The notes below the pieces were generated by a model. That model was given only the letters and a program-made list of their open reading frames with translations, had not been told where the DNA came from and did no database searches. From an uncultured Selenomonadaceae bacterium (GTDB lineage: Bacteria; Bacillota; Negativicutes; Selenomonadales; Selenomonadaceae), in contig CAJOHI010000010.1 in assembly GCA_905234365.1 (NCBI GenBank), forward strand, positions 1 to 47,500: 47,500 bases of DNA, written 5' to 3'. Position 1 is the stretch's first letter. Every line of letters starts with the position of its first letter. A program made the translations under genes and the position numbers. Shown in pieces: positions 93-21,624 of the stretch.

Positions 93-182
93 TTTTTATT
101 AAGTATTAAGTGTTGTTTAATTTTTTTCGATATGATTTAGAGGAATAGGAATGATTATATTTTTAAAAAAGGAGTGAGAAAT

Positions 183-3100
183 ATGGCGACTTATAACAAC
201 ATTACTGACGATCAAGTATTAGATTATTCTGCTGATACCGATACTGTCGTAGTATCTAATACTGGTCAAGACGTCACTATTAGAACCGGCACTTACGATG
301 ATACCATTACCAATAGCGGCTCTAAAGCGTCAATCAAATCTGCTTCCGGTAATGACAGTATAATAAACAGCGGTGTTAAAAGCACCATTGACGGCGGTTC
401 CGGCAATGATTATGTTAATAACAGCGCCGCAGAAGTTTACATTGATACTGGTGACGGTGACGATACCATTAACATTGCTTCCGGTACTTCCAGTTTAACT
501 ATTGATTCCGGTACAGGCAACGATTCAATTATTAATGCTGGCAGCCGCTCTGAAATTAATGCCGGTGCCGGTGAGGACACCATTATTGTCAAAAATACAG
601 ATAACACTGTTACAGGTGGTACCAGTAATGATGTCTTCGTTTATGCCGAATCCAATTCCGAATTGATTATAACTGACTACAATGATAATGACGCCATTAA
701 TGAAGATGATGTTTTTCAAATGGACGTAGGAAGTGTTTATATTTCCAGTTTTAATACCGTTGGCGATGATGTCATTATTACTACCAGCGGCTCTAAGACA
801 ATTACTTTAGCAGGTGCAGCAGATAAAGCTCGGTTGCATTTCAGAAACGGTATCAATGATACTGTTATCAGCAGTCTTAACAGCAAGGAAATTACTACAG
901 GCGATGGCAATGACAGCTTAATTATCAGCGGCAGCGGCAATACTCTTAAAGTTGGTGCCGGTAACAACACTGTCATTAGTAGCGCAAGTGATAATTCAAT
1001 AATTGGCGGCAGTGGTGACGATTATGTTTCTGTTGCAGCTGCTAATAATGATGTAAATCTTGGCAGCGGCAATAATACTTTAATCAGTTCTGGCGCCAGT
1101 TTGTCTGCAACATTAGGTGGTGGAAACGATTCTGTAAGCATTACCGGCGCTGAAACTGAAATTGATGTCGGCGACGGCGTTAATACGATTGTTTCAAGCG
1201 GCAGAGATTCTTTCATTAAGACCGGCAGCGGTAATGATTTTGTAACGGTTTCAGGTACCGGCACTGATGTTTCGACTGGCGACGGCAAGGATATTATTTC
1301 TGTTAGCGCTGCAACTGTTTCCGTTAATGCCGGAATTGGCGACGATGAAATTGTTGTCAGCAGTTATGAAGTAACTATCAGCGGCGGTAGCGGTAGTGAT
1401 AAGGTGACGCTTAATAGTTACGATGTCTATCAATATACTTCCGGCGAAGATGTTATCGTCAATTACGATGCGACTGATACAATTCAGGTACTTGGTGATA
1501 AGAACCTTGACGATATTATCAAAAAGGAAAATATTGAGGTCAGCGGTGACGATGTTAAAATCAGTGTTGACGGTTCCGGTAATGTCATCACTATCAAAGA
1601 AGGCAAAGACAAGCGCATCAATATTAAAGATAAAAATGGCAACATTTCCGGTTTTGAACTCGTTGGCACCGATAACACCGTCGTAACAACTACATACATT
1701 GCGGGACAAGGTGGAACATATACAGGTAACTCTGGAAGTGATTACTTTGTTGTTCAGGCAAGTGCCGATAAGAATACAATTAAACCGGGCGGCGGCAATG
1801 ACAAGGTTATTTTTGAACATGACAGCGTTACTGCTTATAGTGGAAACTATGTCATAGTTGACAGCGGCGATGACGTTATTGAAGGCATTGGAGAACTTGA
1901 TATTGTTGTATTTAGTGATACAAGTGTACCTGAAGCTACTCTCGGCGCTTCTATCAATAGCAGTGATTTAGTATTTAATTACGGCGACGGCACCGTTAAA
2001 GTTGTTAAGCCTGGTAAGACAGAAGTAACTGCAAGATTGTTAAATCATGGTGACAGCGCATTTTATAGCAGCGGCAAGGCTACACTTTATGGTCATGATA
2101 ATATTGCAGATACATTTGTTTTCGCCGGTGCTGATGCTTCTGTCAATGTCGAAGTTTCGGGTTACAATCAAGACAGTGACACCATTAGATTGGCAAGCAA
2201 TGTTACTAGTGTCAGTGCTGCTGTTAAAAATTCCACATTGACGCTGACAAATAATAAGACTACTTTTTCAGTTGACAATGTAAGCAGTCAAAAGGTAGAA
2301 ATTATCGACGCTACTGATCACTCTTACGGCAGACAAATTTACGGCGGTACTTCAATTAAGGTTGGCACTGATGATGGCGATACTGTCAATACTGCACTTA
2401 ATACCACAGTTGTTACAGTTGACGCTTCCGAAAGAACAACAGATGTAATGCTTCGCGGCAATGGCAAGTCAAATGTTATTTATGGTGCTGGATATAATTC
2501 TACCGATTCAGGCACTACAGCTCACAATACAATTTGGGGTGCCGGCGGTGCTGATACTCTCTATGGCGGCAAAAAATCTGACGTATTTATGTACAGTGCC
2601 GGCAAAGATGTCATTGCCAATTATTCTGGCTTTGCCGTTTGGGATACGGTATTTGCGGCTAATGGAAAAGGTGGCAGTGTACAGGCTTCAGACACCGATG
2701 TAATTTACATTTCAGATGGTTCAATCAGCACCTATGCAGTGACAGGCAATGATGTCAACTTCACGATTGGCAGCGATAAATCAAAGGTACTTACCGTTAA
2801 GAATGGCAAAAACAGATATATTGAATTTGTAACGTTGAACGGTTCCGGCGAATTTGCTTCCGATACTACTTGGTCGAAAATTTATCGCAGTGACACCGAA
2901 TTTGTTGTAACTAATAAAGATGTAGCGACTTTAACCGGTACGCCGCCGACAGTTACAGCAACTGCAAGCACTGTTAAGCTCATTGATGCAAGTCTTGAGT
3001 ATACAAATACTGATGTTTCCTTGTACCTGCTTGGCAATGCTGCTGCCAACTCAATTTATGCTTCAAATGGCAAAGGCGATACACTTTATGGCGGTGACGA

Positions 3101-6100
3101 TACTAAGGCTGATTACCTCAAAGGCGGAAGCGGTTCAGACACTTTCATTTATGGAGCAGGTAAAGGCAACGACGTTATCGTTAATTATGAGGAAGGTAAA
3201 GACGCTATTCAATTCCTTGATTCTGATATTTCGATTGCCTCAAGTTCGATAGTCACTTCAAACGGAAATGTCAGCTTTGTTATTACCAACTCAAAAGGCA
3301 AGCTGAAATACACACTTAAAGTGCAAGATGTCAAAGATAAGAGAATTACTTTTAAAAACCCAGACGGCTCAATTTTTACTTCGCAGGTCTTTGGCAATAC
3401 GCAGCTTACACTTCAAGACAGCGACTTAACGGTATTAGGAACGAGTTTTGATACACTCGATACGACATTTAATACTTCAGTTAAAAATATCGACGGTTCC
3501 AAATTGACGGTAGGCAAATATCTGATTGGCAATTCTAAAAATAATTCGATAATTGGCGGTAGCGGCAATGATACTTTACGCGGTGGCAGCGGCAATAAGG
3601 ATTCATTGACAGGCGGTAACGGTAATGACTTCTTCGCATTTGGTAAGAACGACGGCGATAATAACGTCATCACTGATTATACCAGCGGTCAAGATGTCAT
3701 TAAAGTTATTAACGGCGCTTTATCTTCAGTCACGACAATCAAAAACTCTAACGACTTGACATTGACAATCGGCAAAACTAAGGTGCGCCTCAAGAACAAG
3801 GATAATATTAAAGGCAAAGTTACCATTGAGGATTCTGTAGGTGCTCAAACTACGCAGGTTTACGGCGTTGATTCCATTGGCGTTTATAATGGCGACGGCG
3901 CTACTATCAATACAACGGCTAACTCAACTGTAGTAACTATCAATGCTGATGAACACGTCACCTTAAGTGGTGTTGCACATGATAATACTCGTACTGAATC
4001 TGTCCATATAGTTGGTAACAAAAAGGCAAATGTAATTGTCACCGGTAAAGGTAACGAAACTGTCGCAACTGCAGCAGGTGCCGATACTGTCAGAATTACC
4101 GGTTATAGTGGTAACAATCTTTTAATAACGGATTATACTGCCGGTTCAGACAAGATTGAATTGACCAGCGGTACTACGATTTTGGCAGCTTCAACGCTTT
4201 CAGGCGGTAATAAATTTACTTCCAACGCTTGGGATACACTTGCCGCAGATGCAGTATTATTAACATTGCAGTCAGCCGAAGGATTAAGTTCACTTGCCAT
4301 TGAAGGTTCAATCAAGACCAACAAGAAAGGCAACAAGGTTTATAATAAGCTGACAATTATCGACAGAACTACCGGTGCAGAATACAAGCAAGCATTTGGC
4401 GTTGACAGTATAGCGGTTGCAAATGGCGATGGCGATACGATTGATGTAACCGGCAACAGTAAAGTTAAAATTGTTAATGCCAAGAAGCGCACCAAGAAGG
4501 TAGTGATAGTTGGCAATGAACTCGCTAACGAGATAACCGGAAGCACAAAAGCGGATACAATTTATGCCGGAAGTACAACGAAAAACAACGGTACAAAGAT
4601 AAATGGTGCAGGTGGCGCAGACTTGCTGATTGGATACGACACGGATTATGCAGTAAGTTTGAGTGGCGGCGGCGGTGTTGATACATTGATTGCCGGAAAT
4701 GCTTCCAAAGGCGAAAATAACACCTTAACCGGTGGCGGCGGTGCAGATGTATTCTATCTCAGTGCAAAATATACCGGCTCAGATATTATCACGGACTACA
4801 AGGCAGGTACTGATAAACTTTATCTTGAGGCAGGCAGTTCTATAGTTGCAGCGGCAACTCAAAGCGGAGATACTTATTTGACATTGCAGGCATTTACAAG
4901 CAATGGAACTACAAAGACACTTGATACATCAAAAAGCAAAATAATAAGGATTCAGAATACTGCTAACAAGAAGTTGACAGTAATTGATGATAATGATACC
5001 GTGACGACTTCACAGGCTTACGGCACGGCTTCATTAGGTGTGGCTAATGCTGATGGCGCAACAATAAATGCAACTTCAGTGGTCAATAAAGACGTCGTAC
5101 AGATAATGAATGCCAATAAGCGCAGCAAGGCAGTGTATCTGATCGGCAACGATTTAAACAATACGATAGTCGGCGGCACTAAAGCAGATACGATAGTAAG
5201 CGGAAAAGGTAAAAACTCCTTAAAAGGCGGCAATGGCAACGACGTATTCGTTTATGGCGGCGGTGACGACACTATAGCGGACTATAAGAACACCAAAGGC
5301 AACATTGACAGCATTACATTGGCGTCAGGATTAAGTTTTGATACTTACGTAGTCAACGGCAAAGATGTAGTATTTCAAAAGACTGTAAGTGGTGGTGCTA
5401 ATAAGAACTTGTTTACTGTGCTGAACGGTAAAGACAAGAAGATAATTGTAAATAATTCCGAAAAGACCTATTACGATTATTACGAGAAAGTGTTCACTAA
5501 GTCAACGAGTGCTGGTTCCTATGACGCGGACGCAGACGTTGTATTGATTAATGCCGCGAAAAACACGACAGCCATAAGGATAACAGGCAATGCTAAGGAT
5601 AATTCGATATTAGGCGGTGCTAAGGCAGATACTTTGAGCGGTGAATCCGGCAACAATACGCTGACCGGTGGCAGTGGTAAAGACGTTTTCATTTACAAAG
5701 GCTTAGGCAACGACACTATAACGGACTTCACAACCGGAACTGATTCGATTAAACTTGAAGGTGCAGTTACATTGACTAATGCTGAATGGAGCGGTGCAGA
5801 CTTAATCTTTAAAGGTATAACGGCATTGGGCGGTGCTGAAAAGACATTGAGACTGTTGGATATTGGCAAAAAGAAACGTGTAAAAGTTTCAATAACTGAC
5901 CAACAAAACAATACGATAAATATGATCTACGGCGAAAGCGATGTAACCATAGGCAATACCGACGGTGACAAGATAGATGCAACGACTTCATTGATGGGCG
6001 GATTAAAGTCAGTCGATGCAAGCAAACGCACGGCTAAATATCCGATTTACATTATTGGCAATACCAATACTTCAGTGCTTAAAAGCGGCAAAGGTGATGA

Positions 6101-6773
6101 TACGTTGCAAGGTGCAGGCGGCACTTATACACCAGGTGCAGGCAATGACAAAATTATACTCGATAGCGGCACACGTACTGCTGCAGTGGTAGTTTACAGC
6201 AAAGGTAATGACGAGGTAACGAACTTCAAAAAGTCAGATACAATAGAGTTGACTACCAAGATGAAGGCAACGGCTACGCGGAGCAGTGCTAATGATTATA
6301 CATTGACCATAAAACAAAGTGGTAAGAATTTGGGCACCTTGCACATTAAAGGTATAACCGGAGAGTCATTTGACACGACAGCAGAAGTTAAGCGCTTGGA
6401 TAAGACGAAATCTACGGAGATAACAGGTACAGGCAGTTCAACAGTGCAAACGGTTTACTACGATTATCGCATTACAAGTTATGTAACAATAGGCGGACAA
6501 AAGGTGCAGTATTATACAGAAACCAAGACGCACCAAGCAACGCAGCCTGAAGCAATCGCTAAGACCTATGAGGAGCGTAACGACTTTGCTTCTTATGATG
6601 AATTGTTTGCCGATGATGTAGTGATGAATTCAAACGACTTGAGCACCATACTCGACAATGATGCAAGCAGTATAGCTTTGACGACGGATAAAAATTACAG
6701 CACTTCAACTGACATCAACGATTTGACTAAGTTGACGACGACATCAACATTGAAAAAACGTCAAGACGAATGA
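183..6773 (+). CDS. Giant RTX-like (hemolysin-type calcium-binding repeat) modular protein, 2,196 aa
   Basis: The frame opens with a GTG at 174, but ATG 183 sits about 9 bases after AAAAAAGGAG and is the better start. The first ~500 residues are back-to-back short repeats of the type GxGxDxI (for example GGSGNDYV, TGDGDDTI, TGDGNDSL), as in calcium-binding parallel beta-rolls. From about residue 700 onward there are roughly eight longer modules. Each has a DAS/NA-x-R strand, a L/I-x-GN..N-I-x-GG..aDTl turn, a GGxGxDxFxY...NDxIxDYxxGxDxI block, a beta-rich stretch, then QxYGxxSIxV.NxDGxxI. No signal peptide or membrane segment is visible, and I saw no cysteine. RTX proteins of this kind usually leave the cell by type I secretion; no transporter genes lie nearby, so secretion is inferred. 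A surface adhesin or matrix protein is the likeliest role. No enzymatic domain was recognised. Confidence 0.85.
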   Translation: MATYNNITDDQVLDYSADTDTVVVSNTGQDVTIRTGTYDDTITNSGSKASIKSASGNDSIINSGVKSTIDGGSGNDYVNNSAAEVYIDTGDGDDTINIASGTSSLTIDSGTGNDSIINAGSRSEINAGAGEDTIIVKNTDNTVTGGTSNDVFVYAESNSELIITDYNDNDAINEDDVFQMDVGSVYISSFNTVGDDVIITTSGSKTITLAGAADKARLHFRNGINDTVISSLNSKEITTGDGNDSLIISGSGNTLKVGAGNNTVISSASDNSIIGGSGDDYVSVAAANNDVNLGSGNNTLISSGASLSATLGGGNDSVSITGAETEIDVGDGVNTIVSSGRDSFIKTGSGNDFVTVSGTGTDVSTGDGKDIISVSAATVSVNAGIGDDEIVVSSYEVTISGGSGSDKVTLNSYDVYQYTSGEDVIVNYDATDTIQVLGDKNLDDIIKKENIEVSGDDVKISVDGSGNVITIKEGKDKRINIKDKNGNISGFELVGTDNTVVTTTYIAGQGGTYTGNSGSDYFVVQASADKNTIKPGGGNDKVIFEHDSVTAYSGNYVIVDSGDDVIEGIGELDIVVFSDTSVPEATLGASINSSDLVFNYGDGTVKVVKPGKTEVTARLLNHGDSAFYSSGKATLYGHDNIADTFVFAGADASVNVEVSGYNQDSDTIRLASNVTSVSAAVKNSTLTLTNNKTTFSVDNVSSQKVEIIDATDHSYGRQIYGGTSIKVGTDDGDTVNTALNTTVVTVDASERTTDVMLRGNGKSNVIYGAGYNSTDSGTTAHNTIWGAGGADTLYGGKKSDVFMYSAGKDVIANYSGFAVWDTVFAANGKGGSVQASDTDVIYISDGSISTYAVTGNDVNFTIGSDKSKVLTVKNGKNRYIEFVTLNGSGEFASDTTWSKIYRSDTEFVVTNKDVATLTGTPPTVTATASTVKLIDASLEYTNTDVSLYLLGNAAANSIYASNGKGDTLYGGDDTKADYLKGGSGSDTFIYGAGKGNDVIVNYEEGKDAIQFLDSDISIASSSIVTSNGNVSFVITNSKGKLKYTLKVQDVKDKRITFKNPDGSIFTSQVFGNTQLTLQDSDLTVLGTSFDTLDTTFNTSVKNIDGSKLTVGKYLIGNSKNNSIIGGSGNDTLRGGSGNKDSLTGGNGNDFFAFGKNDGDNNVITDYTSGQDVIKVINGALSSVTTIKNSNDLTLTIGKTKVRLKNKDNIKGKVTIEDSVGAQTTQVYGVDSIGVYNGDGATINTTANSTVVTINADEHVTLSGVAHDNTRTESVHIVGNKKANVIVTGKGNETVATAAGADTVRITGYSGNNLLITDYTAGSDKIELTSGTTILAASTLSGGNKFTSNAWDTLAADAVLLTLQSAEGLSSLAIEGSIKTNKKGNKVYNKLTIIDRTTGAEYKQAFGVDSIAVANGDGDTIDVTGNSKVKIVNAKKRTKKVVIVGNELANEITGSTKADTIYAGSTTKNNGTKINGAGGADLLIGYDTDYAVSLSGGGGVDTLIAGNASKGENNTLTGGGGADVFYLSAKYTGSDIITDYKAGTDKLYLEAGSSIVAAATQSGDTYLTLQAFTSNGTTKTLDTSKSKIIRIQNTANKKLTVIDDNDTVTTSQAYGTASLGVANADGATINATSVVNKDVVQIMNANKRSKAVYLIGNDLNNTIVGGTKADTIVSGKGKNSLKGGNGNDVFVYGGGDDTIADYKNTKGNIDSITLASGLSFDTYVVNGKDVVFQKTVSGGANKNLFTVLNGKDKKIIVNNSEKTYYDYYEKVFTKSTSAGSYDADADVVLINAAKNTTAIRITGNAKDNSILGGAKADTLSGESGNNTLTGGSGKDVFIYKGLGNDTITDFTTGTDSIKLEGAVTLTNAEWSGADLIFKGITALGGAEKTLRLLDIGKKKRVKVSITDQQNNTINMIYGESDVTIGNTDGDKIDATTSLMGGLKSVDASKRTAKYPIYIIGNTNTSVLKSGKGDDTLQGAGGTYTPGAGNDKIILDSGTRTAAVVVYSKGNDEVTNFKKSDTIELTTKMKATATRSSANDYTLTIKQSGKNLGTLHIKGITGESFDTTAEVKRLDKTKSTEITGTGSSTVQTVYYDYRITSYVTIGGQKVQYYTETKTHQATQPEAIAKTYEERNDFASYDELFADDVVMNSNDLSTILDNDASSIALTTDKNYSTSTDINDLTKLTTTSTLKKRQDE

Positions 6774-15690: not shown

Positions 15691-15856
15691 TAAACAACAC
15701 TCTCCTTTTAAATTAATAAATTACGCTGTTTATGATATAAATTATAATTATAAATGGAGAACTTGTCAATCACTTTGCCACAAAAATATAAATTTGGATA
15801 TTTAATTAAATAAAAAAAGACTGCTCTTTACAGCCTAAAAATTTATTGATATCATA

Positions 15857-16069
15857 TTATTCGTCAACACCAACCATAACTGAAGTGGCTTTGATTATAG
15901 CGTAAGCTTCCTTGCCGACTTTAAGTCCGAGTCGCTTAACTGAGCCCATTGAAATAGTCGCCGTTACAACATCTCCACCGGCAATTTCAATTTCAACGAT
16001 TGCATTTACTGCGCCTTCTTCAATCGAAATGATTTTACCTTTAAGTTGATTTCTTGCACTGAGTTTCAT
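15857..16069 (-). CDS. mop: Single TOBE-domain molybdopterin-binding (Mop / molbindin) protein
   Basis: 70 residues: MKLSARNQLKGKIISIEEGA at the start, then AIVEIEIAGG, TISMGSVKRLGLKVG and YAIIKATSVMVGVDE. This is the complete Mop fold; such proteins assemble into hexamers that bind molybdate or tungstate and buffer it in the cytoplasm. AGGAGG is 8 bases before the ATG, and an extended -10 (TGGTATAAT, minus strand, at 16101-16109) lies upstream. It is divergent from the riboswitch-porin-modACB transcription unit that starts about 110 bases away, which supports the molybdate role. Confidence 0.9.
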   Translation of the reverse strand: MKLSARNQLKGKIISIEEGAVNAIVEIEIAGGDVVTATISMGSVKRLGLKVGKEAYAIIKATSVMVGVDE

Positions 16070-16180
16070 AAAAAAACCTCCTAGAATTTTGTATTTTATA
16101 ATTATACCAAAAAAATTTTAATTTGTATGTGAAAATTATCATGGTATTTTTTTAATTTTTGTGATAATATTTTAAAAATA

Positions 16181-16292
16181 TGTTCCGAGCAAAAATGTCT
16201 AAAGCATTTGTCATGACATTGCGCCTGAGTTTTTTTAAAAGCTCACAGGGTGAAGATGGAAACGTCAACGCCTTCCGTTTTGAAAAGGAACA
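16181..16292 (+). promoter_or_regulatory. Probable molybdenum-cofactor (Moco-type) riboswitch leader
   Basis: TGTTCC (16181-16186) closes on GGAACA (16287-16292), giving a multi-branched fold. Inside are a helix AATGTC/GACATT (16195-16220), a helix built on GCGCCTGAG...CTCACAGG, and GATG-GAAA-CGTC, a four-base-pair hairpin with a GAAA tetraloop (16255-16266). A small hairpin TTCCG...GGAA competes with the closing helix. The blocks CCGAGC, GCGCCT, AGGGTGAAGATGG and ACGCCTTCCG resemble the Moco RNA motif as I recall it. An extended -10 (TGTGATAAT, 16160-16168) would start transcription a few bases upstream. The genes downstream (porin, modA, modC, modB) and the divergent mop gene fit molybdenum control. 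The family match is from memory, so moderate confidence. Confidence 0.6.
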
Positions 16293-16307
16293 GCTAATAT
16301 TATTCGA

Positions 16308-16387
16308 AATTAATAATGCAATTTTTTTGCATTACGTATTAATTAAGGCTGTCTTTTTCGTATTCAAAAATGGAAAGGAACAGTCTT
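16308..16387 (+). promoter_or_regulatory. Two strong hairpins between the riboswitch and the porin start
   Basis: First hairpin: AATTAATAATGCAA (16308-16321) with TTGCAT..TATTAATT (16327-16344). Second: AAGGCTGTCTTTTTC (16345-16359) with GGAAAGGAACAGTCTT (16372-16387), about 15 pairs with one bulge, followed by an AT-rich, T-rich tract. The second contains another copy of GGAACAG (16377-16383), the same bases that close the riboswitch at 16287-16292, so the two could exchange partners. The second hairpin ends 11 bases before the ribosome site TTGGAGGC, and could act as an expression platform (terminator-like). Confidence 0.5.
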
Positions 16388-16410
16388 AATATATTTTTGG
16401 AGGCATTTTT

Positions 16411-17688
16411 ATGAAAAAATCAATCGTATCTGCATTGACGATCGCTCTCGTAGTTGGTGCAGTGTCAACTACCTTTGCGGCAGCAAATCCGTTTAGTGAC
16501 GTTCCTGCCGGTCATTGGGCGTATGATGCAGTAACTCAACTCGCCGCTGACGGCATTATCGAAGGTTATGGCGACGGCACTTATCTTGGTAACCGTAATA
16601 TCACTCGTTACGAAATGGCGCAGATGATTGCTAAGGCTATGGCTAAAAATCCGATTGGCACAGATAGATCAAGAGACTGGAATTTGAGAAGACTTGAAGC
16701 AGAGTTTGCTGAGGAACTCAATAATCTTGGCGTTCGTGTAAGCAACCTCGAAAAGTATGCTGACAAAGTTACTTGGCACGGCTTCTTGCGTTACACTTAT
16801 AACAGGACACGCATTGAACAGGCAGACGGTCACAAAGTCAATACAAATACTAAGCCTTTAAAATTCCGTTTTGAACCTGTTGCCGAAGTCAATAAACATT
16901 GGAAATTGAAGGCAAGAATTGATGCTGATGTCAATATGAGGACAGATGCAGGCAGCACCGGCAATTTCAACTTGATTCGCGGCTGGGCTGAAGGAAAATA
17001 TGATAATTTAACCATAGGCGTAGGTAAAATGCCGATTCTGCTTGACAGTCAATTACTTTTTGACGATGAACTTTCCGGTGCCGGCGTTATTTTCGGCAAA
17101 AAACTTAAAGTGACGCTGCAAGCTGGTCGCTATGATTTAAACAGCGGCAACAGTGCAATCAGAAATAAAGGTGATGATGTTTCAAATATGCAAAGTGCCG
17201 GACTTGCTTATAATTTAGGTAAATTCAATATCTTTGGCACTTATCATCACCTCAATTCCGATAATTTCAAAGTCGTCAACGCTTACAAAGATCATGGAGC
17301 AACTGACGATGCCAATATTTGGAGCGCCGGTGCAAGTTACAGATTTGATAAAAACTTCGCCTTAGGTGGTCAATACGCGGATAATACTAAGGCTGACAAT
17401 TATGCTCATGCTCATACGATTCAAATTGACTATAAAGGCACCAAAAGAACACAGGCAAAAACTTGGGGAATTTACGCCGCATATCGTTATCTCGGACAGA
17501 ATGTCGCATTAGATCCAACTTACGGAGCAAATGGCGGCGTCGATGCTGGAAACAAAGGCTGGGAAATTGGTGCAGGCTATACTCTTTTTAACAATGTACT
17601 GCTTCAAGCAAAATATGTAAATGCAAAAACTATCGCAACTGACAGAGATGCTGAAAAAATCTTCGGTCGAGTTGAATGGTTCTTCTAA
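16411..17688 (+). CDS. SLH-domain outer-membrane porin (OmpM family)
   Basis: 425 residues. A signal peptide (MKKSIVSALTIALVVGAVST, cleavage after TFA) is followed by one SLH domain (residues ~27-80: NPFSDVPAGHWAYDAVTQLA, then DGIIEGYGDGTY, NITRYEMAQMIAKAM), which in Negativicutes binds polyaminated peptidoglycan. A short coiled-coil (LRRLEAEFAEELNNLGVRV) leads to a ~300-residue beta-barrel with alternating strands ending in VEWFF, with the terminal Phe typical of outer-membrane barrels. OmpM proteins both tether the outer membrane and form diffusion channels. Its position is unusual: it follows a Moco-like riboswitch and runs into modA with a 36-base gap and no terminator, so it may be a porin specialised for molybdate. 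The ribosome site is GGAGGC. Confidence 0.88.
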   Translation: MKKSIVSALTIALVVGAVSTTFAAANPFSDVPAGHWAYDAVTQLAADGIIEGYGDGTYLGNRNITRYEMAQMIAKAMAKNPIGTDRSRDWNLRRLEAEFAEELNNLGVRVSNLEKYADKVTWHGFLRYTYNRTRIEQADGHKVNTNTKPLKFRFEPVAEVNKHWKLKARIDADVNMRTDAGSTGNFNLIRGWAEGKYDNLTIGVGKMPILLDSQLLFDDELSGAGVIFGKKLKVTLQAGRYDLNSGNSAIRNKGDDVSNMQSAGLAYNLGKFNIFGTYHHLNSDNFKVVNAYKDHGATDDANIWSAGASYRFDKNFALGGQYADNTKADNYAHAHTIQIDYKGTKRTQAKTWGIYAAYRYLGQNVALDPTYGANGGVDAGNKGWEIGAGYTLFNNVLLQAKYVNAKTIATDRDAEKIFGRVEWFF

Positions 17689-17724
17689 TTATAAGTAAAA
17701 TTAATATTGATTGGAGTGATAACA

Positions 17725-18546
17725 GTGAAAAAAATTTTGGCACTCATTATGACCTTAGCGATGTTCATTATGACAGGCTGCGGTGAAAAATCCGATGAAG
17801 GCGGTATGACATCTAAAGATTCATCAAAGGAACCGGTAGAACTTCATATTGCTGCGGCAGCTTCTCTTACCGACGTTATGAAAGAGTTGGCGGCTGACTA
17901 CGAGAAAGAACATTCAAATGTCAAAATAACTTTTAATTTCGGTTCGAGCGGTGCTTTACAACAGGCGATTGAAAATGGCGGACAAACTGATATTTTCTTC
18001 AGCGCTGCACAAAAACAGATGGACGCACTTGAAAAATCCGATAATCTTGCAAATGACACTCGAACTGATTTGCTCATTAACAAAATCGTGTTAATTGTTC
18101 CTGCTGACAGCACAAAAAACCTAAAAGATTTCAACGATTTGACACGTGACGATATTCAACATATTGCACTTGGTGAACCAAAAGGCGTTCCAGTCGGTCA
18201 ATACAGCGAGGAAATTTTAACTAAATTAAATATTTTGGACGCAGTTAAAGCTAAAGCGGTTTACGGTTCTGATGTTCGTCAAGTTTTGAGTTGGGTTGAA
18301 AGCGGCGAAGCTGATTGCGGCGTTGTTTATGCTACTGATGCGGCAGTTTCCGGAGATAAGATCAAAATCATTTGCGAAGCGCCTGAAGGTTCTCATAAGC
18401 CGGTAATTTATCCAGTTGCAATTATCAAAGACAGCAAGCACATGGACGAGGACAAAGACTTTTTAAAATTTGTAACTTCCGATAAAGGCAAGGCGGCTTT
18501 TGAAAAATACGGTTTTGAAATGTTTCCTGATATGCGTAAATTCTAA
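17725..18546 (+). CDS. modA: Molybdate ABC transporter substrate-binding lipoprotein ModA
   Basis: 273 residues. The GTG at 17725 is chosen because GGAGTGAT lies 8 bases upstream; the longer frame from 17707 would include that site. The start MKKILALIMTLAMFIMTGC is a lipoprotein signal with the lipobox cysteine, so the protein is anchored in the membrane facing the periplasm. ModA motifs follow: AAAASLTDVMKEL, FNFGSSGALQQ, DIFFSAAQKQMD, LGEPKGVPVGQYSEEIL and VVYATDAAVS, including the serines that hydrogen-bond the oxyanion. It captures molybdate or tungstate and delivers it to ModB. The stop codon overlaps the modC start (TAATG). Confidence 0.94.
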   Translation: MKKILALIMTLAMFIMTGCGEKSDEGGMTSKDSSKEPVELHIAAAASLTDVMKELAADYEKEHSNVKITFNFGSSGALQQAIENGGQTDIFFSAAQKQMDALEKSDNLANDTRTDLLINKIVLIVPADSTKNLKDFNDLTRDDIQHIALGEPKGVPVGQYSEEILTKLNILDAVKAKAVYGSDVRQVLSWVESGEADCGVVYATDAAVSGDKIKIICEAPEGSHKPVIYPVAIIKDSKHMDEDKDFLKFVTSDKGKAAFEKYGFEMFPDMRKF

Positions 18547-19571
18547 TGGAACTCAGCGTTAATATAAAAAAAGCTCTGCGCGACTTCATTCTCAACGTAA
18601 ATTTTACAATCAAGAATGAAGTTCTCGCATTGCTTGGCGCTTCCGGCTGCGGTAAATCAATGACACTTAAATGTATTGCCGGTATTCAAATGCCTGACGA
18701 AGGTGTTATAATTCTTAATGGTCGTACACTTTTCGACAGTGACAAAAAAATTAATCTGCGTCCTCAAGAGCGTCGTGTCGGTTATCTGTTTCAAAATTAT
18801 GCGTTATTCCCAAATATGACGGTTGCCGAAAATATTTCATTTGTTGCTGTCAATCAGAACAGCGTCGAAGATAATATCAAAAAATTTCAACTCAACGGTT
18901 TGGAAAATTCATATCCGGCACAACTCAGCGGTGGTCAACAACAGCGTGTTGCATTTGCTCGAATTTTATCATCAAACGCAGAAATTCTTTTGCTTGATGA
19001 GCCATTCAGCGCACTTGACAGTTATTTAAAATGGCAATTAGAACTTGAAATGTCAAAAATATTTCAAAACTATGACAACTCCGCTGTTTTGGTATCACAT
19101 GATCGTGGCGAAGCATTCAGATTATCTAATAAAGTTGCTGTAATGAGTCATGGACAAATTGAGGCAATCGACGCTAAACATGAGCTTTTTAAAAATCCAA
19201 AAACGTTGTCGGCAACTCTTTTAACCGGCTGCAAAAATGTTTCGTCAGCAAGAATTATTGACGATGAAAATATTTTCGCTGATGATTGGCAATTATCATT
19301 TCATATTGTTCATTGCCAGCCATTCATTAAATATGTTGGCTTTCGTGCAAAATTCATTGAATACAGTCAAAGTGCAGGCGAAAATACTTTTTTGTTTGAA
19401 GTAGTGCAAATTATTGAAGATACATTTTCATATTTGATAATGGTTCGCGCAAAAGGTTCAAACGGTAAATTAATTCGCTGGGAAGTTGACAAAAAAATTT
19501 GGCGGAATATACAAGCAGATGAAATTTACTTGCATTTTCCGTCTAAAAAATTAATACTTTGCAATAAGTAA
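18546..19571 (+). CDS. modC: Molybdate ABC transporter ATP-binding protein ModC
   Basis: 341 residues. Walker A GASGCGKS lies near residue 32, Q-loop FQNYALFPNMTV, signature LSGGQQQR, Walker B ILLLDEPFSALD and the H-loop SHD. After residue ~230 a regulatory C-terminal domain of TOBE/Mop type follows, which in ModC proteins binds molybdate and inhibits transport. The ATG overlaps the modA stop, so the two are translationally coupled. The first ~20 residues are short compared with many ATPases, as is usual for ModC. Confidence 0.93.
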   Translation: MELSVNIKKALRDFILNVNFTIKNEVLALLGASGCGKSMTLKCIAGIQMPDEGVIILNGRTLFDSDKKINLRPQERRVGYLFQNYALFPNMTVAENISFVAVNQNSVEDNIKKFQLNGLENSYPAQLSGGQQQRVAFARILSSNAEILLLDEPFSALDSYLKWQLELEMSKIFQNYDNSAVLVSHDRGEAFRLSNKVAVMSHGQIEAIDAKHELFKNPKTLSATLLTGCKNVSSARIIDDENIFADDWQLSFHIVHCQPFIKYVGFRAKFIEYSQSAGENTFLFEVVQIIEDTFSYLIMVRAKGSNGKLIRWEVDKKIWRNIQADEIYLHFPSKKLILCNK

Positions 19572-19598
19572 AATTAAATTTCTTTAGGATTAAAAATT

Positions 19599-20249
19599 AT
19601 GGAAATAAGTCCACTTATAATTACATTAAAAACCGCCGTCGTATCAACGGTGATAACATTTTTCATCGGCATAGGACTGGCTTATATTGTTGTAAATATG
19701 AAACGCGGTCAAGGATTAGCTGACGCCGTTATCACACTGCCTATGGTACTGCCTCCAACAGTCGTAGGCTTTTTTTTGCTGCTCATGTTTGGCAAGCGAA
19801 GTTTAATCGGTCAATTTCTGCTGCAATTTGACTTTTCGTTAGTCTTCACTTGGCAGGCAACGGTAATATCAGCGGTGATAGTCTCAATGCCATTGATGTA
19901 TCGAACAACTCGCGGAGCCTTTGAACAACTCGACAAAAATATAATTTATGCTGCTCAAACATTAGGTGTTAGTGATTGGAAAATCTTTTGGCGAATTTTG
20001 ATTCCAAATACTCGATATGGAATTTTAGCCGGTCTCGTCTTATCTTTTACACGAGCATTAGGCGAATTTGGCGCAACGATAATGTTTGCAGGCAACATTC
20101 CAGGCGTAACACAAACTATGTCAACCGCGATTTACGCAGCAGTTCAAGCAAATGATTACGATTTAGCTTTTCAATGGGCAATGGCACTGGTACTTTTTTC
20201 CTTGACGTTTGTTTTGATAATGAACAAATGGATTGACATGAAAAAATGA
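19599..20249 (+). CDS. modB: Molybdate ABC transporter permease ModB
   Basis: 216 residues with five or so membrane helices. TLPMVLPPTVVGFFLLL is the conserved ModB segment. The EAA loop that contacts ModC reads AAQTLGVSDWKIFWRILIP, followed by SFTRALGEFGATIMFAGN. It lies 27 bases after modC and completes the importer. The order A-C-B differs from the A-B-C order in Escherichia coli. Confidence 0.93.
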   Translation: MEISPLIITLKTAVVSTVITFFIGIGLAYIVVNMKRGQGLADAVITLPMVLPPTVVGFFLLLMFGKRSLIGQFLLQFDFSLVFTWQATVISAVIVSMPLMYRTTRGAFEQLDKNIIYAAQTLGVSDWKIFWRILIPNTRYGILAGLVLSFTRALGEFGATIMFAGNIPGVTQTMSTAIYAAVQANDYDLAFQWAMALVLFSLTFVLIMNKWIDMKK

Positions 20250-20261
20250 TATTATAACGTT

Positions 20262-20295
20262 AAAATTATAAAAGCCTCGAAAACATCTTCGAGGC
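20262..20295 (-). terminator. Intrinsic terminator after tRNA-Thr (also a hairpin at the end of modB)
   Basis: GCCTCGAA (20274-20281) pairs perfectly with TTCGAGGC (20288-20295). On the minus strand the hairpin is followed by TTTTATAATTTT, so it ends the tRNA transcript. On the plus strand only GTTAATTT follows, so it is a weak stop for modB. Confidence 0.75.
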
Positions 20296-20306
20296 GTTAA
20301 TTTCAA

Positions 20307-20382
20307 TGGAGCCGACTGCAGGACTTGAACCTGTGACCTGATCATTACGAATGACCTGCTCTACCAACTGAGCTAAGTCGGC
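20307..20382 (-). tRNA. tRNA-Thr (anticodon CGU)
   Basis: The minus strand reads acceptor GCCGACT, D-arm GCTC AGTTGGTA GAGC, anticodon arm GGTCA TTCGTAA TGATC, variable loop AGGTC, T-arm with TTCAAGT and acceptor AGTCGGC, then TCCA. The anticodon CGT (CGU) reads ACG threonine codons, and the discriminator U fits tRNA-Thr. CCA is encoded. One T-stem pair is an A-C mismatch. Confidence 0.95.
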
Positions 20383-20448
20383 GCTCATAACTAATACAAA
20401 CGTAGTATAACACAAATTTTTACATTGTCAACACTTAAATTAAAAATA

Positions 20449-21624
20449 TTATTGTAACTTATCATTCAAAATTTCAACAGCTTTGTCAAGTTGTGCATCA
20501 TCAGAAATATTAATATCTGCATTATTTAACATTCTTTGCAAAGGCTTTGAAGATTCAATTTCAACATCTGGCACAATACCAACGCCGTCGATACTGCGAC
20601 CATTTGGAGTATAATATTTTGCAATCGTGAGTTTTAAGCCGTCTTCATGAAACATCGGCATAACGGTTTGCACTGAGCCTTTACCATAAGACTTTGTGCC
20701 AACAATAGTTGCAGCTTTTGTATCCTGCAATGCGCCGGCTAAAAGTTCAGAAGCACTTGCGCTGCCGCCGTCAAGAAGAACAACTATCGGATATTTTACA
20801 TTTTCTAACTCGGAATCGTAAACCTCTTTAGAACCGTCGCGCTGAATTACAGAAACAATCGGACCTTTAGGCACAATCTCTTTAGCAACTTCAACACAAC
20901 TGGTTATAACGCCGCCTGGATTTTGTCTCAAGTCAAGCACAAAAGCCTTCATATTTTGCGCTTCCAAGTCATTCATTGCTGATTTGAATTCTTCGCCGGT
21001 TTTTTCGCTGAATGAGGAAATTCTGATATATCCGATCTTATCGTTGAGCATTTTATCCGCGACAGTTTTAACTTTGATTGTATTTCTTGTAATGGTATAA
21101 ATTTTGTCTTCTTGACCTTCACGATGAATTAATAATTCAACATTTGTACCAATTTCGCCGCGAATTTTCAGTGCCACTTCGTCAGGTTCAATTTCATTAA
21201 CAGATACACCGTCAACGGCAAGAATGGAATCACCTGCCTGTAAGCCTGCCTGTTCGCCTGGTGAATCTGGCATTACTGACATGACTTGCACACCGCCGTC
21301 TTTAAAACCCATATAAACGCCGATGCCGCCAAAACTACCGGAAGTGTCAGATTTAATTTGACTGTAAAGACGTTGATTAAGATAAATCGAATGAGGATCA
21401 CCAAGCGAATGAACCATTCCGCCGATAGCGCCGTCAATCATTTTAGTATAATCAACAGAATCGACATAATGACCTTCAATGAAGTGCATTGCACAAAATA
21501 ATCTTGCTAAATTTGCAGCACGTCCGGCATTTAATTCTAACAAAAAGCAAATTCCTGCAATCGTTACAACTGAAGATATAAACGCCGTCAACAGTATGTA
21601 AACGAGTAATTTTTTCTTACCCAT
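20449..21624 (-). CDS. ctpA: C-terminal processing protease CtpA/Prc (S41 family)
   Basis: 391 residues. One N-terminal membrane anchor (LLVYILLTAFISSVVTIAGI) is followed by a PDZ domain (FGGIGVYMGFKDGGVQVMSV, GEQAGLQAGDSILAVDG) and the S41 catalytic core. The nucleophile is the Ser in GGSASASELLAGAL and the general base is the Lys in GTKSYGKGSVQ. Such proteases act in the periplasm and trim envelope proteins, often cell-wall hydrolases and their activators. The EnvC-like factor gene lies 31 bases upstream on the same strand, a common pairing. Confidence 0.92.
   Translation of the reverse strand: MGKKKLLVYILLTAFISSVVTIAGICFLLELNAGRAANLARLFCAMHFIEGHYVDSVDYTKMIDGAIGGMVHSLGDPHSIYLNQRLYSQIKSDTSGSFGGIGVYMGFKDGGVQVMSVMPDSPGEQAGLQAGDSILAVDGVSVNEIEPDEVALKIRGEIGTNVELLIHREGQEDKIYTITRNTIKVKTVADKMLNDKIGYIRISSFSEKTGEEFKSAMNDLEAQNMKAFVLDLRQNPGGVITSCVEVAKEIVPKGPIVSVIQRDGSKEVYDSELENVKYPIVVLLDGGSASASELLAGALQDTKAATIVGTKSYGKGSVQTVMPMFHEDGLKLTIAKYYTPNGRSIDGVGIVPDVEIESSKPLQRMLNNADINISDDAQLDKAVEILNDKLQ

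Follow-up and report, generated by a model that had tools for sequence, protein, structure and literature searches.

An OmpM-type porin gene behind a molybdenum cofactor riboswitch leader, ahead of modACB, in an uncultured Selenomonadaceae bacterium

Introduction

Passive entry through general porins is the usual assumption for molybdate at the outer membrane. Control of an outer-membrane entry protein by a cofactor-sensing RNA is known from btuB with its cobalamin riboswitch; there the protein is a TonB-dependent receptor that has the cofactor itself as its ligand. Here we analyse a 47,500-base stretch of DNA from an uncultured Selenomonadaceae bacterium (hereafter the window; the complete contig C10, CAJOHI010000010.1 of assembly GCA_905234365.1) in which a molybdenum cofactor (Moco) riboswitch leader is followed by a gene for an OmpM-type porin and then by the molybdate transporter genes modA, modC and modB. 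The locus resembles btuB by analogy, in that a cofactor-sensing RNA stands ahead of an outer-membrane entry protein; it would differ from it in having a porin as that protein and an RNA whose ligand is the end product of the ion taken up.

The closest described RNA is the Moco riboswitch family RF01055 (PMC2408646, Mol Microbiol 2008, main text), with which the window shares an aptamer with a P3 stem ahead of a molybdate transporter operon and from which it differs in having an outer-membrane porin gene as the first gene; the words "porin" and "outer membrane" do not occur in the main text of that paper. The closest described proteins are the OmpM porins of Veillonella (8bys, 8bym, 8byt), which, as described in excerpts of PMC10628300, likewise combine an SLH domain, a stalk and a 16-strand barrel and belong to a multi-paralogue family; OmpM1 is reported there as a peptidoglycan-binding trimer with general diffusion properties. 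The window porin, in contrast, is encoded within a nutrient operon that has a riboswitch ahead of it and is 22% identical to the Veillonella protein in the best structural alignment. The transporter genes resemble those of ModABC systems, with modA and modB above their equivalog cut-offs, and depart from them in the order A-C-B behind a porin gene, in a modC product scoring below cut-off and in a separate Mop protein. The SLH "iron uptake porin" family NF033921 is also an SLH porin named for an inorganic ion, but the window porin falls under its curated cut-off (50.9 vs 100). Among the open-licence papers listed as literature matches there was no report of a porin under a Moco riboswitch or of OmpM embedded in import operons. 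What is new here is the porin gene as an apparent derived insertion behind a Moco leader.

Results

A Moco riboswitch leader precedes the porin gene

The leader and the porin gene comprise the following features (window coordinates):
16171 to 16305, + strand: Moco riboswitch aptamer with P3, RF01055 (cmscan 72.6 bits, cut-off 36)
16283 to 16295, + strand: 3' strand of P1 with adjacent bases; it can pair with the 5' strand of P1 or, alternatively, with the 5' hairpin arm (16347-16358)
16343 to 16389, + strand: switch hairpin of the putative expression platform (-19.4 kcal/mol), then UAUAUUUUU (terminator-like); a homologous hairpin precedes modA in genus relatives
16399 to 16403, + strand: Shine-Dalgarno (SD) sequence GGAGG of the leader; its counterpart precedes modA in relatives (G048; leader alignment) and the porin gene here
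16411 to 17688, + strand: OmpM-type SLH porin, 425 amino acids (SLH PF00395, Porin_4 PF13609)

The match to RF01055, above the gathering cut-off, covers the full length of the model (positions 1-135) with an E value of 1e-15 over the whole window. The P3 stem, which separates the Moco type from the P3-lacking tungsten cofactor (Tuco) type (PMC2408646, main text), is present in the family alignment and in the alignment of genus leaders, and the aptamer lies upstream of molybdate transport genes, with modACB behind one intervening porin gene. The initial annotation had proposed a Moco-type riboswitch in this leader, and the covariance model bears it out. No second RF01055 match was found in the source genome sequence, which is 89% complete. 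The P1 strands lie at 16181-16186 and 16287-16292 (duplex -7.1 kcal/mol), and the leader as a whole (16171-16425) is more stable in folding than its own shuffles (z -4.3).

A P3 stem is found in the aligned mod leaders of the window, G048 and G059 and, by eye, in that of G037; the 16 other leaders of a 19-leader alignment lack it and would be of the Tuco type in the terms of the main text of PMC2408646. The ligand type of the mod leader apparently changes within one genus. Elsewhere in the class, the 2.7-Mb genome G077 contains 11 RF01055 matches at E <=0.001, three of them under the family cut-off and some less than 1 kb apart.

The porin gene is absent from the mod loci of relatives

modA was found in 28 of 66 genomes of the genus (the source genome being counted in both figures). 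Of the 27 other modA loci in the genus, 22 have RF01055 directly 5' of modA, within about 150 nucleotides (nt); for the other five (G002, G003, G011, G050, G099) no match was found ahead of modA. A hidden Markov model (HMM) trained on window-like porins, the window porin included, recovers that porin and detected no porin open reading frame (ORF) at any of these 27 loci in the DNA covered, which extends 894 to 7753 bases upstream of modA. RF01055 occurs in 110 of 380 genomes of the class; at the 109 other class riboswitch loci examined, which are part of all RF01055 matches and include 19 of the 27 genus modA loci, the same model found no porin ORF in about 1.5 to 3 kb of DNA 3' of each riboswitch. 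Beyond the genus, the modA survey consists of riboswitch-bearing loci. Seen from the porin side, 78 loci of the closest porins were taken from the species-genome collection, many with short flanks, and in the flanks covered none showed a match to modA, modB or mop. The porin-modACB order, whose conservation the initial annotation had raised, was seen in one of the 28 modA-bearing genus genomes and at none of the 109 riboswitch loci, and a conserved porin-mod unit is ruled out for the loci examined.

The leader itself is shared with relatives: GGAACAGTCTTAATTTATTTTTTGGAGG stands immediately 5' of modA in the G048 leader and GGAACAGTCTTAATATATTTTTGGAGG stands 5' of the porin gene in the window, and positions 16377-16410 of the window resemble the sequence just 5' of modA in G048, also in the leader alignment. 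Because the leader is homologous to the modA leaders of relatives, the aptamer, the switch hairpin and the SD sequence appear to be older than the porin gene, which would have entered between the SD sequence and modA. Judged by this sequence comparison, the window porin gene is a derived insertion, and its placement behind the Moco switch is well supported. A search for repeats bordering the insertion gave nothing beyond 72-86% matches of 14-25 nt.

The genes behind the porin

Downstream of the porin gene, and divergently from it, lie:
17689 to 17724, + strand: porin-modA spacer, 36 nt, with its own SD-like GGAG and no terminator listed
17725 to 18546, + strand: modA, periplasmic molybdate-binding protein with a lipobox by eye (TIGR01256, 202.9 bits, cut-off 62.5)
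18546 to 19571, + strand: modC, ATP-binding cassette (ABC) ATPase (PF00005; TIGR02142, 178.8 vs cut-off 285.05)
19599 to 20249, + strand: modB, molybdate permease (TIGR02141, 235.9 bits, cut-off 182.6)
15857 to 16069, - strand: mop, molybdenum-pterin binding protein, divergent (TIGR00638, 93, cut-off 55; TOBE)

modC overlaps modA by one base and is separated from modB by 27 nt, so that the layout agrees with the initial annotation. Its gene names stand for modA, modB, mop and the SLH porin by Pfam and NCBIfam; the modC product is by profile an ABC ATPase and is called modC because of its position, as its score is below the NCBIfam modC cut-off. The ungapped terminator scan listed no terminator-like site in 17689-17724, as had been noted before, and the arrangement suggests co-transcription of the porin gene with modACB. 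Far upstream, at 174-6773, the window encodes a strongly repetitive ORF of 2199 amino acids which by eye looks like a surface protein.

Molybdopterin oxidoreductases (PF00384) occur in 29 of the 66 genus genomes and modA in 28, with 27 genomes having both; modA thus co-occurs with these enzymes in the genus, and the source genome has three PF00384 genes.

Folding of the leader

The P1 3' strand with its adjacent bases (16283-16295) pairs with the 5' arm of the switch hairpin at -11.9 kcal/mol, a value equalled by 1% of shuffled arms, and this alternative helix competes with P1 (-7.1) and with the hairpin (-19.4 kcal/mol). In in-silico folding of partial transcripts of the window leader the alternative helix forms at lengths of 188 to 214 nt, and at 226 nt P1 and the hairpin prevail; P1 and the switch hairpin on the one side and the alternative helix on the other are mutually exclusive in silico. 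Riboswitch-bearing mod leaders of the genus number 23 with that of the window, of which 19 were aligned; of the four outside the alignment, G037, G054 and G057 are not long enough to contain the hairpin and G055 has a long spacer. An automatic arm search of the aligned leaders found that in 16 of 19 at most 8% of shuffles pair equally well with the P1 3' strand, and in 10 at most 1%; the remaining three are a leader without a hairpin and two failures of the search (G059, and the window, where an inner stem was picked). With arms chosen by hand after viewing the sequences, 1% (window), 4% (G059) and 0.4% (G012) of shuffles were as good.

We infer, tentatively, that the switch hairpin acts as an attenuator rather than in translational control and that Moco turns the unit off. 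When Moco is scarce, P1 would not be held and its 3' strand would pair with the 5' arm of the hairpin, preventing the hairpin, and porin and ModABC would be made; when Moco is plentiful, P1 would be held, the hairpin would form and expression would stop.

AT-rich repeated or inverted elements (e.g. TTAGGAATGA or GAATGCAGAATG) were seen by eye in operon spacers of several genus members, in one case within a mod leader (L013 750-895, L278 1371-1498, L032 leader).

The window porin

The porin consists of a signal peptide (by eye), an SLH domain (residues 27-70), a helical stalk (about 86-117) and a 16-strand barrel (124-424) with a terminal Phe. It matches Veillonella OmpM1 (8bys) in phmmer with an E value of 6e-37. 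An AlphaFold2 model built from 34 sequences (predicted local distance difference test 80.8, predicted template modelling score 0.69) has a 16-strand barrel, with stalk helices at 86-98 and 100-117 modelled partly at low confidence, and its four best Foldseek matches in the PDB were OmpM1 entries (template modelling score by target 0.80). The whole barrel carries a net charge of +7 against a mean of -4.3 (standard deviation 9.4), with 3 of 33 other porins equal or higher, and loops 3 and 7 are similar to those of the nearest Selenomonas and Mitsuokella porins. The pore charge appears weakly shifted to positive, and such charge counts do not demonstrate selectivity.

The closest sequence in the 66 genus genomes is 59% identical to the window porin, and the best among the matches listed in the wider collection is 58%; the nearest named relatives among those matches belong to Selenomonas, Mitsuokella and metagenome-assembled genomes (MAGs) of Selenomonadaceae, many of them derived from the rumen. 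In a 10-row tree the window porin groups with Selenomonas and Mitsuokella OmpM and not with the source genome's own C24, C96 and C18 porins (bootstrap 98), and its branch is long (0.81 and 0.97 in two trees, in both of which some rows were over-trimmed at the N-terminal end, as with L039 to 357 amino acids). A recent local duplication is ruled out by this tree placement and by the 57-59% identity to the nearest own paralogue. Composition gives no sign of a foreign gene, the G+C content at third codon positions (0.36) being like that of modA and modB.

OmpM paralogues at other loci

A profile search found five OmpM porins in the source genome. Three of them are 85, 80 and 72% identical to relatives among the porins compared; the two without close relatives are the window porin and the one on contig C47, and both lie inside import operons. 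The C47 gene stands as follows:
L160 4616-8989 (G000:C47): OmpM paralogue between mtlA and mtlD, the mannitol phosphotransferase system (PTS) gene (NF011663) and the mannitol-1-phosphate dehydrogenase gene (NF002652) both being above cut-off

The gap from this porin gene to mtlD is 24 nt. The first sets of porins had been gathered with the window porin as query; a search of the 66 genomes with the C47 porin itself gave a best full-length match of 50% and one partial match of 53%, so that its lack of close relatives in these genomes is not explained by the choice of query. Of 55 other genus genomes with mtlD, 29 loci were examined: mtlA lies upstream of mtlD in 28, and no porin-HMM ORF was found at any of the 29 in the flanks covered. 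The window and C47 porins were not sisters in the first tree; C47 was left out of the second, careful one.

Porin genes also adjoin uptake genes in relatives. At L110 a porin gene lies between a PTS EIIA gene and a short-chain dehydrogenase/reductase (SDR) gene, after which treC follows. Of 22 treC loci examined in the genus, 3 have adjacent porin ORFs, namely those of G054 (L308/L110), whose treC is identical to the L110 gene, of G053 at a contig end (L325) and of G037 as short overlapping pieces (L322); the 22 loci, some ended by contig ends, were chosen out of 30 for a treC with 65% or more identity to the L110 gene. In G059 a porin gene lies 37 nt 5' of a gene for a TAXI-type binding protein. 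L110 also carries, at 4745-5470 on the opposite strand, a GIY-YIG endonuclease-like ORF (by eye) between the N-terminal part of the PTS gene and the EIIA segment.

Riboswitch control as a general OmpM theme was considered and dropped, as an Rfam scan of 40 porin loci gave two matches, one to a tRNA and one to a NiCo riboswitch that lies 3' of the C24 porin gene. The latter (RF02683, 52.3 bits, L003 1387-1465, G000:C24) lies between the OmpM paralogue and a gene for a cation diffusion facilitator (CDF) transporter.

Discussion

The reading that we favour, and hold to be somewhat more probable than all others together, is that an OmpM paralogue was captured between the Moco leader and modA and, as first gene of a Moco-controlled unit, increases the flux of molybdate across the outer membrane under Moco scarcity. 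The paralogue would have inserted between the leader (aptamer, switch hairpin and SD sequence) and modA of a pre-existing modACB operon, would increase the permeability of the outer membrane to molybdate when ModABC is made and, through its SLH domain, would additionally tether the outer membrane. The outer-membrane porin and the inner-membrane ModABC are probably switched together, and a benefit of the porin for molybdate uptake is likely. The co-occurrence of modA with molybdopterin oxidoreductases in the genus counts in favour, as does the position of C47, the other OmpM without close relatives, in an import operon (mtlA-mtlD).

Several observations weigh against this reading. The porin-mod arrangement is known from one MAG. 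In excerpts of PMC10628300, OmpM1 is likened to OmpF as a channel for general diffusion, and molybdate could presumably already enter through the products of the four other OmpM genes. From strand alternation, the residues facing the pore are estimated to carry a net charge of +7, which does not stand out from 33 other porins (mean 3.0, standard deviation 3.3; 6 equal or higher). The U tract 3' of the switch hairpin is imperfect, and the ungapped terminator scan did not list the hairpin. By eye, three of the 23 genus leaders (G037, G054, G057) have no space for it; because these leaders are too short, the platform is not common to all leaders of the genus. A 9-of-12 promoter-like match at 17672-17701 overlaps the end of the porin gene, within a region (15800-20500) with more such matches than when shuffled (27 against a mean of 13.6, standard deviation 3.8), and modA may therefore have an internal promoter of its own. 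Finally, the C24 and C96 paralogues, whose upstream spacers measure 148 and 177 nt, adjoin genes that by eye are trpE and hisF, from which it follows that porin genes also occur near genes unrelated to uptake.

These last genes lend weight to a neutral or opportunistic landing, in which OmpM paralogues duplicate and land widely and the mod copy plays no part in molybdate uptake, being tolerated as one more general porin and tether. The single occurrence among 28 genus modA loci and the absence of modA, modB or mop from the covered flanks of the 78 closest porin loci would fit such a landing as well. However, the spacers of the trp and his copies leave room for a promoter and the mod copy lies directly behind a riboswitch leader; the operon-embedded copies are the two without close relatives (59%, and 50% full-length) and the other three have relatives at 72-85%; and porins are also found in mtl and tre operons. 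We regard a neutral landing as the less likely course, albeit one to be taken seriously.

We doubt that the porin has evolved from OmpM into a molybdate- or oxyanion-selective channel with a role like that of PhoE or OprP. The long branch and the positive barrel charge would favour it, but that charge lies inside the family spread and may, by our reckoning, have been raised by lysine codons under AT-rich codon bias, and loops 3 and 7 are like those of the nearest Selenomonas and Mitsuokella porins. Of the dedicated molybdate channel proposed in the initial annotation, what holds is an OmpM paralogue behind a Moco switch, with the switch hairpin and SD sequence that precede modA in relatives; a specific channel is not upheld, given the OmpM1 fold, the general porin character of OmpM1 and the weakly positive charge. 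A mis-join is highly improbable: the source is a draft MAG (2.3 Mb, 148 contigs, 89% complete) and no relative examined has a porin gene here, but on one side the leader agrees with those of relatives through the SD sequence, on the other side modA is intact, contig C47 holds a second insertion of like kind and contamination is 0.77%.

Beyond the captured porin of the window, a broader and more speculative proposal, which we put forward tentatively, is that the OmpM paralogues of the genus are portable outer-membrane modules that import operons (molybdate ABC, mannitol PTS, trehalose PTS) have repeatedly captured, and that these would evolve rapidly and, regulated by the operon that took them up, turn into channels dedicated to its substrate; the window porin, its pore adapted to molybdate, might then be the first known case of a Moco riboswitch controlling an outer-membrane channel.

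A porin behind the cofactor's own riboswitch would make outer-membrane entry of molybdate a regulated step of the pathway, and would show that individual operons can recruit OmpM, a protein that has been investigated for its tethering and general porin functions. The control of nutrient entry in these diderm Firmicutes would thereby become directly testable.

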